Assembly (NCBI GenBank): GCA_040218145.1
Contig: JAVJQK010000076.1
Coordinates: forward strand, 124,001 to 188,000
Source: Sandaracinaceae bacterium
Lineage (GTDB): Bacteria > Myxococcota_A > Polyangia > Polyangiales > Sandaracinaceae
Direction of reading: 5' to 3'
DNA length: 64,000 nucleotides
In this document: piece by piece, positions 867 through 64,000 of the stretch
How positions within the stretch are numbered: the stretch's first letter is position 1
Layout of the letters: every line of letters begins with the position of its first letter
Program-made: the position numbers and the translations under genes
The notes under the pieces: model-generated
Databases searched by the model: none
Told to the model about the DNA's origin: nothing
The model's input: only the letters and a program-made list of their open reading frames with translations

Positions 867-10331
<9,465 letters not shown>

Positions 10332-38078: not shown

Positions 38079-40898
38079 GTGGACGCCCCTCGCCATCGAC
38101 GGTCCGGCGGTACGCTCGCTCGGCGCACGCTGGGTCCCCTCGCCCTGCTGGTGGGGCTCGTGATCGCTGGCGTCACGCTCCTCGTGTATCTGCACCTGAC
38201 CTCCAGCCTCGAGGAGCAGGCGCTCGCCCAGCTGAGCAGCTACGTGCAGGAGCGCGGGCGCCACGAGCAGGAGGTCTTCGAGCGCACCGAGCGAACCCAG
38301 GCGCGCCTGCGTCGGGAGCTCCTGTCGGCCCTGCGCACGAGCGACGCGGCGCGCTTCGATGAGCGCTTCGAGCGCCACCCGGACGGCGTGATTCGCAACG
38401 CGGAGGGGCGGCTGGACGGCGCGCGCCACGCGCAGGTGTGGGTGGGCCGGGACGTGACGGTGCATGACGATCTCCGTCGACGCCTGGTGACCGCCTACGA
38501 CCTCGTGCAGCGCTACGGGCCGGGGCTCGAGCACCGCTTCATCAACCTCTACGTCTCGTTCCCGGAGAACGCGCTCGCCTACTACTGGCCGAGCGCGCCC
38601 GACTGGTCGACGCGCGTCTCGCCGGGGCTCGACATCCGCGGCGAGGAGTTCTTCGAGGTCGCCACGCCCGAGAACGATCCGAGCCGCGAGGTCGCCTGGA
38701 CCGGCGTCTACCGCGACCGGTACGGGCCCTGGATGGTCTCCTGCGAGACGCCGGTCGACGTCGACGGTGAACACGTGGCCACCGTCGGGCAGGACATCAC
38801 GCTCGACTCGCTGCTGGAGCGCACGCGCACCGAGTCCCTGCCGGGCAGCCACAACCTCGTCTTCCGAAAGGATGGCAGGCTCATCGCGCACCCCGAGCTG
38901 TACGCGGGATACGACGACGAGACGCGTGACCTGCGGATCCAGTCGCTCGATGACCTCGGGCTCCGGGAGACCCTGCGGCTGGCGCGTGAGCTGCCGCCCG
39001 GTGAGCACGTCGCCTACAACGAGGTCGCGGAGGCGTACCTCGGGATCACGCGGCTCGAAGGCCCGGGCTGGTTCTTCGTCACGGTCTCGCCCGAGCACCT
39101 CGTGTCCGCCCCGGCCGAGGACCTCGCGGGGGTGATGCTGCTGCTCGGTGCGCTCGCGCTGCTGCTGGAGGTGCTCGTGTTCTCCTTGGTCCTGCGCCGC
39201 TACGTCACGCAGCCGCTCGAGGCGCTGACGGCGGCGACGGAAGCGCTCGCGCGCGGAGAGCGGGACGCGCCGCTGCCGGTCGGTCGCGACGACGAGCTCG
39301 GGCGGCTCGCGGCGGCGTTCGAGCGCACGCGAGACGCGGTGACCACGAAGGAGGACGAGCTCGCGGCGGAGGCGCAGGCGCGCCTGGAGAGCGAGCGCCA
39401 GCTGCGCGCGATCCTCGAGCAGACCCCGGCCGTCGTGTTCATCAAGGACCTCGACGGACGCTACTCGCTCGTGAACCGTCGCTTCCGGGAGCTCCTCGGC
39501 AGCGAGCCCGACGTCGACTCCCTGACCGACTACGACTTCCTGCCGACCGAGGTCGCCGACGCGATGCGCGAGAACGACATGCAGGTGATCGAAGGCGGCG
39601 TCGCGATCCAGTTCGAGGAGCGCGTCCCGTTCGACGGGGTGGAGCGCGTCTACGTCACGGTGAAGTTCCCGCTCCACGACGCGGACGGAGAGCCGCTCGG
39701 GGTGTGCGGCATCGCCACGGACATCACGCGGCGCAAGGAGCTGGAGGAGCAGCTGCGTCAATCACAGAAGATGGACGCGCTGGGCCAGCTGGCGGGCGGC
39801 GTGGCCCACGACTTCAACAACCTGCTGACGGTGATCCTCGCGCAGTCCGATCTCCTCCGCATGTCGCTCGAGGGGCAGCCGAAGCTGCGTGACGACATCG
39901 AGCTGGTGCTGGACGCGGCCGAGCGCGCGAAGGCGCTGACCCGGCAGCTGCTCGCCTTCTCGCGCCGCGAGCTCTACGACGCGCAGATCTTCGATCTCCG
40001 AGCGGCGCTCGACGAGATGCGCGCGCTGCTCAGCCGGGTGATCGCCGAGAACATCGAGGTCGAGCTCGAGCTCGGGCCGGAACCGCTGAACGTGCGCGCC
40101 GACCGCGGCCAGATCGAGCAGCTCACCCTGAACCTGGCCACCAACGCGCGCGACGCGATGCCCGACGGCGGGCGGCTGCGCCTCGCGGCCGAGGAGGTCG
40201 TGATCGGCGACGACGACGAGCTGGGGATCGAGCCCGGACCCTACGTCCGCCTGACGGTGAGCGACACCGGCGTCGGCATGGACGAGGCCACCCGCGCCAA
40301 GGCGATGGAGCCCTTCTTCACCACCAAGACGGGCGACCGGGGCACGGGGCTCGGGCTCGCGATCGTCTACGGGATCGTCAAGCAGAGCGGCGGCGCGGTG
40401 CAGCTCCGCAGCGCCCTCGGCGAGGGGACGACGGTCACCGTCTACCTGCCCACGGCGGAAGGCGAGGCGACGGCGGCCAGCCCCGTCGATCCGGCGGCCC
40501 GCGTGGGCACGGAGACCGTGCTGGTCCTGGAAGACGCGTTGCCGGTCGCGAACGTCATCGAGCGCGCGCTCCGCGGCTCCGGCTACCAGGTCTTGATGGC
40601 GAGCCGGGGCGAGGACGCGGTGGAGCTTGCGCGAAGCCACGACGGGCCGATCCACGTGCTCGTCTCCGACGTGATGCTGCCGGGCATGGACGGCCCGAGC
40701 GCGGCGGCCGAGATCCGCTCCCTGAGGCCCGAGATCGCGGTCCTGTTCATCACCGGTCACGTCGACGAGCGGATCCGACAAGGCGCGCTGGGCGAGGAGG
40801 CCGACGTGCTCGAGAAGCCGTTCCGTCCGGGCGAGCTGGTCGAGCGCGTCCGGCGCGCCCTCGACGGAGACCCTGGCGCGCGTTCTGCTCTACCCTGA
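38079..40898 (+). CDS. Hybrid sensor histidine kinase (Cache-HAMP-PAS-HisKA-HATPase-REC)
   Basis: 939 residues from a GTG start. First membrane segment about 18-40, a long periplasmic Cache-like sensor (about 45-345), second membrane segment ([20 protein letters not shown]), HAMP ([18 protein letters not shown]), and PAS ([19 protein letters not shown]). In HisKA the phospho-acceptor is His577 in VAHDFNNLL. The ATPase has [11 protein letters not shown]. The receiver has Asp864 in [10 protein letters not shown] and Lys in EKPFRP. The signal could be relayed to its own receiver and then to an unlinked phosphotransfer protein. Stand-alone, followed five bases later by the reductase gene. Confidence 0.92.
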
Positions 40899-43639: not shown

Positions 43640-44920
43640 ATGCGATTTCGACGAGCAGCGATCACGATCGGGATTCTGGGGGCGGTGCTGACGCCGTTCG
43701 CGTGGGACGCGGCGAGCGCGCAGCGGGACGCTCCGACCGCCGCGGAGCTCCGGACGGCGGCAATGGCCACGCCGAGCGATGCCGAGGCGCGGAGGCAGCT
43801 GCGCGCGCAGGGGCCGGCGGGTCTCCGCGCCCTGCTCGACGCGCACCGGGGGGACGTGGAGCGCCTGCGGGCTGGCGACGGCGAAGGGCTCGACGGGCTG
43901 CGCGCCGCGATCGACGCGGTGAGCGGCCAGCGCGACGGGCACGCCTCGGGCCTCTACTGGCACACCGACCTCGAGGCGGCGAAGCGAGAGGCGGCGCGGC
44001 GCGGGCTCCCGATCCTGTCGCTGCGGCTGCTCGGACGGCTGGACGAGGAGCTGAGCTGCGCGAACAGTCGCTACTTCCGGATCGTGCTCTACGCGGACCC
44101 GGAGGTCGCGCGAGAGATGCAGCGTCACTTCGTGTTGCACTGGTCGAGCGAGCGGCCGGCGCCCGTGATCACGATCGACATGGGGGACGGCCGGGAGCTG
44201 CGCCGGACCATCACGGGCAACTCCGTGCACTACGTGCTCGACGCGCAGGGTCGCCCCCTCGACGCGATCGTGGGGCTGTACTCACCGGGAGGCTTTCGCG
44301 CGGCGCTCGTCGCCGCACGCGCGGTGCACGGGCAGTGCAGGAGCGGCGCCGATCGCGAGGCCTGTCTGGCGCAGGCGCACGAGGCGGCGCGCGCGGCGAG
44401 CCGCGCGACGTGGGCGCGAGCGCCGCTCTGGCTGACCTTCGACGACGCGGCCCGGGCGTCTCGACCGGCCGCCCCTCCGACGGGAGACGCGCCCTCGGCC
44501 GCGATCGCCATGCCGCTGACCATACGCAAGGCTTATGTCGAGACGCCCGCGCTGGCGCTGATGGGCGCGGAGGCGGAGGCGGCCCCGGAGCCCGACTGGG
44601 CCGCGATCGGTCGGGAGCTGCTGGGACACGGACGCCTCTCGGTCCGCTCGCGCGCGCTGCTCCGGCTCAAGACGGGGCGGGACGACGTCACCGCGATCGC
44701 GGAGCGGCTCGGACGCGACGCGCTGGCGGACGGCGTGCGCAACGAGGTCCGGTTCCGGGACGAGATCCGGCGCTGGTTCGTCGAGCGCGATCCCGCGACC
44801 CGCGACCTCGCGGCGCTCAACCGGCGCGTCTACGCCCAGCTCCTCCTGACACCGGCGAGCGACCCGTGGCTGGGGCTCCGCGCCGACGATGTCTACGACG
44901 GACTCGAGCTCGACGAGTAG
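43640..44920 (+). CDS. Exported protein with thioredoxin-like segment lacking CxxC
   Basis: 426 residues with a signal peptide (AITIGILGAVLTPFAWDAASA), and GGGAGG upstream at five bases spacing. The stretch LYWHTDLEAAKREAARRGLPILSL is followed by LSCANSRYF, and the pattern resembles thioredoxin-like SoxW/DUF255 folds with the redox pair lost (CANS for CxxC). YSPGGFRAAL and later helices complete it. Function unknown; a non-redox thioredoxin-like scaffold in the periplasm is inference. It has no coupling to the next gene. Confidence 0.72.
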   Translation: MRFRRAAITIGILGAVLTPFAWDAASAQRDAPTAAELRTAAMATPSDAEARRQLRAQGPAGLRALLDAHRGDVERLRAGDGEGLDGLRAAIDAVSGQRDGHASGLYWHTDLEAAKREAARRGLPILSLRLLGRLDEELSCANSRYFRIVLYADPEVAREMQRHFVLHWSSERPAPVITIDMGDGRELRRTITGNSVHYVLDAQGRPLDAIVGLYSPGGFRAALVAARAVHGQCRSGADREACLAQAHEAARAASRATWARAPLWLTFDDAARASRPAAPPTGDAPSAAIAMPLTIRKAYVETPALALMGAEAEAAPEPDWAAIGRELLGHGRLSVRSRALLRLKTGRDDVTAIAERLGRDALADGVRNEVRFRDEIRRWFVERDPATRDLAALNRRVYAQLLLTPASDPWLGLRADDVYDGLELDE

Positions 44921-44978: not shown

Positions 44979-46316
44979 GTGGGTACCGACGACGAGGACG
45001 AGGGGACGCGCGACACGATGGCGTCTCATCCGGGGGCGCGGCTCAAGGCGAAGCGCCGTCGGTCGGGCGTGCTCGAGATCGGCGACATGCTCGACGGCCG
45101 CTATCGCATCCTCAGCGAGCTCGGGCGCGGCGAGATGGGCGTCGTCTACAAGGGGCTCGACCCGGGCCTCGAGCGGCGCGTGGCCATCAAGCTCGTCGCG
45201 CCGAGCCACGTCTCGAGCAAGGGCATCCGGGAGCGGTTCCAGACCGAGGCCCGGGCGATGGCCCGCGTCTCACACCCGAACGTCGTGGCCATTCACGCGC
45301 TCGGAGAGCACGCCGGGACCCCGTACTTCGTGATGGAGCTCGTCGAGGGCACCGACCTCGAGACCTGGCTCGAAGAGAGCGAGGCGCTGCCGCTGTCGAT
45401 CGGGCAGGCCGTCTCGATCCTCTCGGACATCGGCGCCGGCATCGAGGCGATCCACGCGGCGGGCGCCACCCACGGCGACCTGAAGCCGTCGAACGTGCTC
45501 GTCGATCCGAAGGGCCGCGTGGTGGTGACCGATCTCGGCCTCGCGCGCCTCCTCGACACCCAGGTGCGCAAGACGCTCGAGCTCGCGGGTACGCCCGCCT
45601 ACATGGCGCCCGAGGTCCTCGCGATGGAGAAGGTCTCGCCCGAGCTGTCCAAGCGCGTCGACGTCTACTCGCTCGCCGTCATCGCGTTCGAGCTCCTGAC
45701 GGGGCAGCCGCCGTTCGACGCCGAGAACCTCGTGCAGCTCCTCAACATGCACGCGACGCTGCCGCCCAGGCCGCCGAGCGCGCTGCGCCCCGAGATCGGC
45801 GCGACGGGCGACGAGGTCCTGCTCGCCGCCCTGGCCAAGGACCCGAGGCTCCGGACCGGCTCCGCGCGGGAGCTCATCACCGGGCTCGAGCGCATGGCGG
45901 AGGAGGCGGAGAGCGGGATCGGCCGGCTCCACGTGGCGATCGTGGACGACGACGCGGACTTCACCGCCTTCGCGCGGCTCGCGCTCGAGGGCGCGTTCCC
46001 TTCCTCGAAGGTCGACACCTACCGGGACGGCGCGTCGGCGATCGAGGGCATCACCCGGAGCCCACCCGCCGTGGCGCTCGTCGATCTCCAGCTCCCGGAC
46101 ATCAACGGCCTCGAGGTCGTGGCGACCCTGCGCGCCGAGTGCCCGCGCTTCCCGATCGCGGTCGTGACCGGCGTGGGGAGCGCGAAGGACTGGAGCGTGC
46201 TGTCGAGCCTGGGCGCCGACGTCTTCCTCGCCAAGCCGCTCGACCGCGAGGAGCTGGTGCGCGCGGTGCGCCGCCTCATCGGCCGCAGCTCGCTCCCCCC
46301 GCCGCCGCGCGCCTGA
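44979..46316 (+). CDS. Ser/Thr protein kinase fused to a two-component receiver domain
   Basis: 445 residues from a GTG with AGGGA just upstream; an ATG at 45018 is the alternative. Kinase domain about 45-310: LGRGEMGVVYKG, Lys71 in VAIKLV, catalytic loop HGDLKPSN (His165; the usual Arg is Gly, a non-RD kinase), DLGLA for DFG, and GTPAYMAPEV. The receiver domain is about 320-435: IVDDDAD acid pocket, Asp369 in VDLQLPD as the phosphate acceptor, VVTGVG, and Lys in LAKPLD. No membrane segment. The kinase output could be controlled by phosphorylation of Asp369 by a histidine kinase. Confidence 0.92.
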   Translation: MGTDDEDEGTRDTMASHPGARLKAKRRRSGVLEIGDMLDGRYRILSELGRGEMGVVYKGLDPGLERRVAIKLVAPSHVSSKGIRERFQTEARAMARVSHPNVVAIHALGEHAGTPYFVMELVEGTDLETWLEESEALPLSIGQAVSILSDIGAGIEAIHAAGATHGDLKPSNVLVDPKGRVVVTDLGLARLLDTQVRKTLELAGTPAYMAPEVLAMEKVSPELSKRVDVYSLAVIAFELLTGQPPFDAENLVQLLNMHATLPPRPPSALRPEIGATGDEVLLAALAKDPRLRTGSARELITGLERMAEEAESGIGRLHVAIVDDDADFTAFARLALEGAFPSSKVDTYRDGASAIEGITRSPPAVALVDLQLPDINGLEVVATLRAECPRFPIAVVTGVGSAKDWSVLSSLGADVFLAKPLDREELVRAVRRLIGRSSLPPPPRA

Positions 46317-61059: not shown

Positions 61060-64000
61060 CTACTCCCCGGACTCGACCACGCCCGACTCGAGCGCCGCGA
61101 GCGCGCGGCGCAGCTGCGACGCGTCGAAGGGCTTGCGGAGGAGCGGGAGCCTCAGCTCCGCGCGCGGCCACTCGAACGTGTGACCCGAGACGAGGAGGAT
61201 CGGCAGCCCCGGGTGCCGCTCCCGCACGCGCTCGGCGAGCTCGACGCCGCTCATGCCGGGCATCACCTGGTCGGTGATCATCGCGTCGATGACCTCTCCC
61301 GCCTCGAGCTTCTCGAGCGCCTCGAGCCCATCCTCCGCCTCGAGCACCTCGTAGCCTTCGCGCCGCAGGAGCCTCGCGATCATGCCTCGGACCTGCGGAT
61401 CGTCGTCGACCACGAGCAGCCTGTCGCCGGGGTGCGTCGCGGTGACGTCGCCGCCGCGACCGGCCGGCTCGGAGGCGGGAACCGGGAGCATCACGGAGAA
61501 CACGCTGCCGCGCCCCTCCGTGCTGCGGACCGTGATGCAGCCGCCGTGCTGGCTCGCGATGCCGTAGCAGCTCGACAGCCCCAGCCCGGTGCCTCCGGTC
61601 TCGCTCTTGGTCGTGAAGAACGGGTCGAAGATGCGATCGGTCAGCGACTCGGGGATGCCGGACCCAGTGTCGATCACCTCCAGCGAGACGTACGTGCCGG
61701 CGGCGAGGTTGCGCGTGCGCGCCCGCTCGCCGTCGAGGTAGGTCGTGAAGGCTCGCAAGGTGATCTGCCCCTCCTCGCCGATCGCGTCGCGCGCGTTGAT
61801 CGCGAGGTTCATCACCACCTGCTCCAGCTGGTGCGCGCCCACGCCCACCAGGAGCACGTCGTCGTCGTCGGGGACATCGAGGCGCAGCGCGATCCTGGAG
61901 GGGAGCGTCCGCCGCAGGAGGCGCGCCGTCTTGCGCACGCAGCGCACCGCGTCGGCGTGCGACTCGCTGACCGGCTCCCGGCGCGCGAACGCCATCAGAT
62001 CGCGGACGATCTTTGCCGCGTCGTCGCAGGTGTTGAGGATGGCTTCGATGTCCTGCGCCGCGGGGTGGTCGGGCCCCACCGCATCGAGCGCGAGATCGGC
62101 CGAGCCCATGATCACCGCGAGCAGGTTGTTGAAGTTGTGGGCCAGGCCTCCGGTCAGCTGCCCGATCGCCTCCATGCGCTGCGCGTGCTGGAGCTGGGCC
62201 TCGAGCTGCTTGCGCTCGCTGACGTCGCGGAGCACGAGCGCCACCTGCTCGGGGGTCTCTTCGCCCGCCGCGACGGGGACGAGGGCGGCCTCGAAGACCC
62301 GCTCGGATTCGTCGCGCACGCGCGCCTCGCCTACCCACACGTCGCCACGCAGCGCCGCGTCGAGGAGCTGGGTCGTCGGCACCGCGGCCGGAAGCTCCAG
62401 CCCCTCATCGATGGGTGCCTGGCGCGCGAAGCGGGAGGGGAGGTGGAGATCGAGAGCCGCGTTCCAGTCCACGATCGTGCCCGCGCGATCCAGGATGATC
62501 ACCGGGTCGGTCGCGGCGCCCAGGAGATGCGTCGCGGCGGCGGGGGGCGCCTGCATCGACTGCGCGGCGAGATGCTTGAGAGGGGCCAGCGCGGCCAGCT
62601 CCCCCTCGTCCCACGCGTCGCTCTTGCCCCGCGTCTCGGCGCGCCAGGCTTCGAAGGACCCGCGTGGCATCAGCCGCCCGTCGGGACCGCGGGACAGCTC
62701 CTCGTCGGGATCGCCCGCCCAGGTCACCTTCGCGACGCTCTCGCGACGGAACCAGAGCGCCCACGACGTGCCCGCGGGATCGAGGCGCAGCGCCGCGAGC
62801 CCCGCCGCGCTCTCTCGATGGGACGCCGCGGGCGGGTAGTCACGCGAGAGGGACCGGGTCCAGAAGAGCGGCCGTCGCTCGGACGCGAGCCAGGACGCGA
62901 TCGAGGTGATGAGCGCCTGGGGCGGGACGGTCCCCGTGGTCCGGATCTGCTGGCCCACCACCAGCGCGAACCCGGAGGCGGAGGGGACGGCCATCAGCGC
63001 GTCGAGCTGCTCCGAGAGCGTGCTGAAGAGCCCCTCTCCCGGGGTCAACCCCTCCACCACCGCTTGCATGCGTCGACGGCACCGGGACGCGATCTCCGCC
63101 TGCTCGATGCGCTCCTGGCGCTCGGCGAGCACGGAGAGCATCTGCGAGAGGAGGTGGGTGAGCGAGACGAGCGAGGGAGGCACCGCGCGAGCCGTCTCGT
63201 GGTGACAGGCCACGAGCCCCCAGAGCTCGTCGTCCCGCACCAGGCTGATGGCGAGGCTCGACCGCACGCCCATGTTCTTCAGGTAGCGGAGATGGACGGG
63301 CGACACCGCGCGATACATCGAGCCAGACAGGTCGAGCGGCTCCCCGACGACGGGCTCCGCCGTGTAGTCGATGTCCTCGATCACGCGCACACGGTTGAGC
63401 ACGAACAGCCGCCTCGCCTGCTCGGGGATGTCGGCGGCCGGGTAGTGCAGGCCGAGGAAGCTGCCGAGGTCGGCTCGCTTGGCCTCCGCCGCGACGTGGC
63501 CCGAGCCGTCGTCCTGGAATCGGTAGACCATCACGCGGTCGTAGCCGGTGAGGTTACGGATGCGGCGCGCGGTCAGATCCATGAGCCGAGAGAGATCGGC
63601 GGCCGCGTCGAAGTCATGCACGTCGATCTGCGCATGGAAGCGATCGGTCAGCTCGCTCACCGGATCCGGCGCGAGGCCCACCTCGAGGATGACGCGACTC
63701 GTCTCGATCTCGCGGTGGAGGAAGGTCGCCGCGACGCGCCCGGGGCTCCACTCGTAGCGTCGGAGCAGTCGAGACGGAGCGGCCCCCAGCGCCTCGATGT
63801 CGGCCGCGAGCCCCGCCCCGCAGCGCTTGGCGACGAGCTCCCGGAGCGGTCTCCCGAGCACGTCGTCCACGCCGCGGTCGAGCAGCTCGCGCACGTTGCG
63901 GCTCGCCGAGACCACGCGCAGCTCGGGCCCCGTGACCGCGAGAAGGCACCCAGTCGGGCGCAGCGCGCCGATGAGATGGATAGGCTCGGAGGCGCACTCC
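61060..64000 (-). CDS. Bacteriophytochrome hybrid histidine kinase (N-terminus cut by window edge)
   Basis: At least 980 residues; the frame continues past base 64000, and only a few N-terminal residues should be missing. The edge reads [13 protein letters not shown], matching the bacteriophytochrome start with the biliverdin-binding Cys. GAF has the [12 protein letters not shown] motif, and [13 protein letters not shown] has the chromophore His. The PHY tongue is MPRGSFEAW. Then PAS ([17 protein letters not shown]), HisKA (LAHNFNNLL), ATPase ([11 protein letters not shown]) and a C-terminal receiver ([16 protein letters not shown]). Red/far-red light control of phosphorylation is expected. 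The downstream PCMT gene follows directly. Confidence 0.93.

Follow-up and report, generated by a model that had tools for sequence, protein, structure and literature searches.

The window, i.e., the whole stretch of 64,000 nucleotides of a Sandaracinaceae genome analyzed here, contains a gene whose product joins a Hanks-type Ser/Thr protein kinase to a response-regulator receiver (Table 1). An in-frame ATG is found at codon 14 of its ORF. The kinase, which is probably cytosolic, has all the elements of a Hanks-type enzyme: the Gly loop (residues 49-54), the catalytic Lys (K71), the alpha-C Glu (E90), the Asp of the HxD motif (H165-G166-D167, followed by K169), the Asn (N172), and the Asp of the DxG motif (D185). 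It departs from the RD-type, PknB-like pattern in having HGD at 165-167 and an Arg at a key place of the activation loop. We take the Thr located seven positions N-terminal to the G of GTP as the counterpart of PknB T171; in the window kinase this place is held by Arg197, and a Thr (Thr199) is found at the place equivalent to T173. The receiver has the complete set of CheY-like residues (D323, D324, D369, T397, F416, and K419).

Table 1. Genes, domains, and residues of interest in the window.
Feature	Positions	Strand	Evidence or remark
Hybrid histidine kinase (HAMP-PAS-HisKA-HATPase-receiver; dCache below cut-off)	38079..40898	+	Pfam
Gene directly upstream of the fusion gene, 58-base gap, no Pfam family	43640..44920	+	Pfam scan
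Kinase-receiver fusion gene, 445 aa	44979..46316	+	uninterrupted ORF, GTG start
Hanks-type (PknB-like) kinase domain, residues 42-294	45102..45860	+	Pfam PF00069 Pkinase 8.2e-48, above cut-off
Catalytic loop H165-G166-D167 (non-RD)	45471..45479	+	sequence
Activation segment, residues 185-212	45531..45614	+	sequence
C-terminal helix of the kinase (modeled at 296-312) with the short linker leading to the receiver	45861..45929	+	AlphaFold2 model
CheY-like receiver, residues 319-431	45933..46271	+	Pfam PF00072 Response_reg 5.3e-19, above cut-off
D369, predicted phosphorylation site	46083..46085	+	Asp in 42/44 fusions, Glu in 2
K419, conserved receiver lysine	46233..46235	+	Lys in 44/44 fusions
Another hybrid histidine kinase (HK-receiver), its reading frame still open where the window ends	61063-63999	-	

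The solved sequences nearest to the kinase domain are those of PknE and PknA, and the nearest solved receivers are MtrA and ArlR. We built an AlphaFold2 model of the protein from five sequences (pLDDT 78.8, pTM 0.64), and a Foldseek search with this model matched the kinase half to PknA and PknB (PknA 4ow8). The kinase is predicted by the model to end with the helix 296-312, and the first strand of the receiver (318-322) would start 6 residues later. Hence, the ORF, the Pfam matches, and the residues bear out the original prediction in its structural part, namely that a non-RD kinase with HGD and a receiver with a full acidic pocket and Lys are found in one protein.

Conservation and spread of the kinase-receiver fusions

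The gene is intact and of equal length in a genome of the same species (G424). The two copies differ in 11 codons, 9 of them synonymously, and the two amino acid differences (G2S and T10R) both lie in the N-terminal tail, which has low confidence in the model. In the source genome itself (11.06 Mb in 148 contigs), 150 of 566 candidates were scored, all 150 were matches, and both domains were aligned in 7 of those scored: the window gene and paralogues on contigs C33, C122, C14, C79, C39, and C127. A candidate for a seventh paralogue, on C27 (aligned to residue 417), turned out to be kinase-only. The original prediction proposed a search for conserved fusions, and this search revealed a conserved family: a kinase-receiver match (E <= 1e-60) was found in 10/10 genomes of the bacterial family searched, counting the source genome and that of the same species, and the fusions fall in one clade. 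Of 377 genomes of the phylum, at least 58 gave a match with E <= 1e-52, and in at least 51 of them (the source genome included) the alignment reaches residue 419 or beyond, both counts being lower bounds with four candidates scored per genome. In the 7 others of these 58, the receiver follows a longer linker in L213, L214, and L219, and no receiver was found in the stretch fetched around L212, L216, L217, and L218. In other phyla, a full-length match was found in at least 2 of 40 genomes, both Chloroflexi, with at most 45 candidates scored per genome.

For the comparisons below we used a set of 44 fusions, made of forty regions around high-scoring full-length matches or paralogues of the source genome, one of which (L060) holds two kinase-receiver ORFs, plus the window gene, L087, and L089. 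The latter two were retrieved, together with L085 and L086, by a scan of genome contigs for the receiver subfamily, which found at least 4 kinase-receiver fusions among the 80 loci listed; these four come from MAGs of Sandaracinaceae, Sandaracinus, and Polyangiaceae, and L085 and L086 were left out of the set, being taken as already counted (as L051 and L056). All counts over the 44 fusions are thus drawn from high-scoring matches, with many lower-scoring full-length matches of the phylum left out, near-copies (e.g., L057 and L058) kept in, and several regions cut by contig ends.

The catalytic Lys, the Glu, the Asp, Lys, and Asn of the catalytic loop, and the Asp of DxG are kept in 44/44 fusion kinases, all of which are therefore predicted to be active, and a pseudokinase reading of the family was rejected. 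The receivers are almost as well kept: Lys is invariant at the K419 column, the only exceptions at the D369 column are the Glu of L078 and L080, and the five key columns are all canonical in 38 of the 44 fusions. The distance from the end of the kinase profile to the start of the receiver profile is 26 aa in the window protein, 20-40 across the 44 fusions, and 23-28 in 39 of them. A distinct layout, pseudokinase-kinase-pseudoreceiver, occurs in three double-kinase fusions (L078, L080, and L082, in genomes G196, G377, and G220, respectively), where the first kinase has lost catalytic residues (the Asp of HxD and/or the Asn and the Asp of DxG) and is followed by an intact second kinase and an altered receiver, with Glu at the Asp site in the first two.

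The kinase-domain trees, made by a quick method with 88 and 97 rows, place 49/49 myxobacterial fusion rows in one clade (SH-aLRT 99 and 100), with the kinase-only rows, including those of L212, L216, L217, and L218, outside it. The two Chloroflexi fusions (L226 and L227) fall on another branch of the kinases. The intact copy in G424 and the six two-domain paralogues of the source genome rule out a frameshift or an assembly fusion of two genes, an outcome that the original prediction had named as its possible refutation. More generally, it is practically out of the question that a sequencing error joined two genes or that the fusion is recent and non-functional, since nothing was found in favor of such an origin and the class-wide clade, the presence in all the family genomes searched, and the predominance of synonymous changes all speak against it.

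The activation-loop Thr and the HxD motif

We examined the activation loops of the 44 fusions and of 68 kinase-only controls. The T171-type Thr is present in only 2 of 43 parsed fusions (L074 and L079) vs 61 of 62 parsed controls (22/23 from the source genome and 39/39 from three other genomes), and these controls were chosen by similarity to the window kinases, which favors canonical ones. The unparsed controls were inspected by eye: the five of the source genome have Thr (3), Ser (1), or His (1), and the one from another genome has Thr. One of the two fusions with the loop Thr, L079, has an altered acidic pair in its receiver. The mean length of the activation loop is 19.1 in RD fusions, 18.1 in non-RD fusions, and 22.6 in controls.

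The RD arginine is also frequently changed. The HxD motif of the 44 fusions is HRD in 24, HGD in 15, HAD in 3, HCD in 1, and HND in 1, i.e., a residue other than Arg in 20/44, compared with 0/66 parsed controls (HRD in 26 of 28 from the source genome, where 2 are unparsed, and in 40/40 of the others). A search of the source genome for the DNA pattern HxDxKPxN gave 185 sites, 9 of them HGD, and 4 of these 9 lie in kinase-receiver genes; HGD is thus found in 4 of the 6 fusions of this genome that match the pattern vs 5 of the 179 other sites. The five other HGD kinases (L221-L225) have no receiver in the stretch fetched. As a rule, the idea that HGD explains the fusion was therefore rejected, both by these receiver-less kinases and by the HRD of 24/44 fusions, which also means that HGD is not required for the kinase-receiver architecture. 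Two of the five, L221 and L225 (on contigs C31 and C104 of the source genome), have a tail that resembles an AAA-type NTPase.

Nor is a missing loop Thr peculiar to kinases fused to a receiver, because some kinase-only kinases are devoid of it. The kinase-only domains of L212, L216, L217, and L218 have this Thr in just 2 of 6 cases, and in two of the four domains without it several Thr occupy other places of the loop. Among the three receiver-less HGD kinases that could be parsed, L221 and L225 lack it and L222 keeps it. The loci L216 and L217 (in G271 and G082) each hold a pair of neighboring kinase-only genes in opposite orientation, with the usual loop Thr in 0/4 domains.

The Fisher p-values of these comparisons overstate the case, because the fusions form one clade and inherited traits are counted repeatedly. 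With a single fusion clade, the loop Thr may have been lost once and the receiver gained once, both long ago. In a test of independent pairs, the association of the loop Thr with the receiver had one pair on supported branches (two when all branches are used) and gained no support. The repeated changes of the RD arginine are less exposed to this problem of shared ancestry: the fusion tree requires at least 8 changes between Arg and other residues at HxD.

Phosphorelay genes near the fusions

We then scanned all frames around the genes with profiles of histidine kinases (HK) and histidine phosphotransfer (Hpt) domains, grown from one HK of the window and one Hpt stretch. At least 26 of the 44 fusions have a domain of either type within 3.5 kb of the gene (20 an Hpt, 11 an HK), a lower bound because contig ends truncate several of the loci. 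The same was found for only 3 of 60 kinase-only controls (1/20 in the source genome and 2/40 in G001, G196, and G220). The source genome has 18 Hpt matches, 17 over the Pfam cut-off, and Hpt domains over this cut-off are found beside two of the paralogues of the window gene, those on C122 and C127.

A recurrent association involves a gene encoding an Hpt-receiver protein, directly upstream of the fusion gene and divergently transcribed, in 16/44 fusions. All 16 belong to one clade of 17 members (support 87/62, below the starred level), and the remaining member, L073, lies 286 bases before a contig end. The motif H-x-[LIVM]-[KR]-G is present in 17 of 18 Hpt-receiver ORFs. By our own profile, the four fusions found by the receiver-subfamily scan (L085, L086, L087, and L089) all have the divergent Hpt-receiver gene; Pfam, run on three of these loci, placed the Hpt domain above cut-off in L085 and L089 and not in L087.

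The window gene is outside the Hpt-paired clade, at a branching position that the fusion tree does not resolve, and it is one of the 18 fusions with no HK or Hpt seen within 3.5 kb. The nearest phosphorelay gene seen is the hybrid HK listed first in Table 1, which is on the same strand and ends 4.1 kb upstream; that it is the partner of the fusion protein is only a guess. We also considered the gene directly upstream of the fusion gene. Of 18 other relatives, 5 have a homologue of it, in no case next to a kinase-receiver gene within the region retrieved; four of these homologues are transcribed divergently from a receiver ORF whose tail is OmpR-like (by eye), with an HK domain nearby. In G002, the homologues of the two genes that flank the fusion gene are separated by other ORFs. 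Hence, with homologues beside other receiver ORFs and this gene order in G002, a functional link between the two genes has no support.

Possible control of the kinase by its receiver, and related systems

The lineage mostly lacks the usual on-switch and often adjoins phosphorelay genes, and the receiver is therefore probably the new switch of the kinase. We observe the architecture, the conserved residues, the gene neighborhoods, and the grouping in one clade, and from these we infer phosphotransfer, its direction, and an allosteric coupling of the two domains. Under this reading, which we hold to be somewhat probable, phosphorylation of the receiver by a phosphorelay replaces that of the activation loop. 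A histidine kinase, in many relatives via an Hpt protein, would phosphorylate D369, and the phosphorylated receiver would shift its shape through the T397/F416 switch. It could then act through the short stretch that joins it to the last helix of the kinase, either pairing two kinases or repositioning the C-lobe, and the activity toward Ser/Thr substrates would change as a result. Receivers can pair via their alpha4-beta5-alpha5 face, and both pairing and a push on the last helix of the C-lobe are possible. The phosphorelay input would have taken the place of loop autophosphorylation, as suggested by the near-complete absence of the T171-type Thr from the members examined; the RD arginine, which would read the loop phosphate, changed repeatedly while the catalytic residues stayed. 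The original prediction of a direct switch from histidine phosphorelay to Ser/Thr phosphorylation is consistent with the excess of HK and Hpt domains near the fusions and with the missing loop Thr of 41/43 of them. It is weakened by the lack of such domains within 3.5 kb of the window gene, and the word direct is doubtful where an Hpt step is implied. Two other points count against the switch: the window kinase keeps Thr199, and the Chloroflexi kinase-receiver pair keeps both RD and the loop Thr.

A broader version, in which the whole myxobacterial kinase lineage swapped its loop phosphoswitch for a His-Asp input, is possible and we advance it tentatively, leaning somewhat against it: the Thr would have been lost near the root, the RD Arg would have decayed several times later, and the receivers of one large branch would be fed by a dedicated Hpt-receiver gene in divergent orientation.

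The main rival to the switch is a constitutively active kinase whose phosphorylated receiver only serves to place it, by docking at partners, poles, or substrates, leaving catalysis unchanged. Single-domain receivers commonly act by docking, and the loss of both the loop Thr and the RD arginine around an intact catalytic core is compatible with a kinase that works without a switch. However, the narrow range of linker lengths points, if only suggestively, to a fixed geometry and not to a free tether, and we regard this alternative as unlikely, though worth serious consideration. The flow of information could also be the reverse, the kinase phosphorylating Ser/Thr on its own receiver or on a partner HK or Hpt-receiver protein and thereby tuning the phosphorelay. 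Kinase and phosphorelay genes do adjoin in relatives, and there is precedent for Ser/Thr kinases phosphorylating response regulators, according to the available text of PMC12189002; still, the retention of all five key receiver residues in most of the fusions is what one expects if His still donates, which makes this flow rather improbable. Even less credible, and indeed very unlikely, is a receiver that serves as a phosphorylation-independent fold (pseudo-receiver), as suggested for Rim15 of Ascomycota. The Glu at the Asp site of two members and, by eye, the tail of L220 without acidic residues would fit it, but the Asp is kept in nearly all fusions and the window protein has all five residues. 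L220 itself (G012, 1560-3539) encodes a kinase that keeps RD and the loop Thr, followed by this tail, which resembles a degenerate receiver.

If the switch is real, the lineage-wide exchange would provide bacteria with an established family of Ser/Thr kinases gated by phosphorelays. His-Asp and Ser/Thr phosphorylation have mostly been studied apart in bacteria, and this family joins both in one enzyme. It is a clean place to measure the gating of a Hanks kinase by a receiver, the Hpt-receiver partner gene makes the phosphorelay input testable in vitro, and, as the RD arginine changed repeatedly in a lineage devoid of the loop Thr, nature itself offers an experiment on how kinase control is rewired.

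The literature searched, with partial coverage, gave no description of this myxobacterial lineage, which is not a claim that it is absent from print, and the accessible portions of two surveys of bacterial kinase domains, from 2005 (PMC1262709) and 2010 (PMC2877116), mention no receiver fusion. The fusion of a kinase to a receiver is as such already known. The fungal Rim15 is also a protein kinase with a C-terminal receiver, a likeness that we take as one of layout. Rim15 is a eukaryotic kinase; according to the excerpts of PMC8510515, its receiver Asp is kept in Basidiomycota and Mucoromycota and lost in Ascomycota, where members have Glu, Ala, or Gly, and the role of its receiver was reported as not yet studied. 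Receivers attached to metabolic enzymes have been seen many times in bacteria, as stated in the portion of PMC5847659 available. In Pseudomonas aeruginosa PA3346, a His-Asp input likewise drives the state of Ser/Thr phosphorylation, as phosphorylation of its receiver stimulates a Ser/Thr phosphatase; the parts of PMC12189002 that describe it show that it differs in being a phosphatase, not a kinase, and in having an N-terminal receiver. The cyanobacterial HstK hybrids also combine a Ser/Thr kinase and a His-Asp module in one protein, but the joined module is a histidine kinase and not a receiver, as far as the material at hand describes them; an HK-STYK hybrid is mentioned in the accessible part of PMC1183210. 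The Chloroflexi fusions likewise have a kinase joined to a receiver, and differ from ours not only in their kinase branch, RD motif, and loop Thr, but also in an extra C-terminal tail that resembles NarL/LuxR. Finally, the window kinase shares its fold and catalytic residues with the Hanks kinases of the PknA/PknB/PknE type, and is set apart from them by the absence of the T171-type Thr, by HGD in place of HRD (non-RD, a term we use as in the section of PMC8463890 available), and by the attached receiver.
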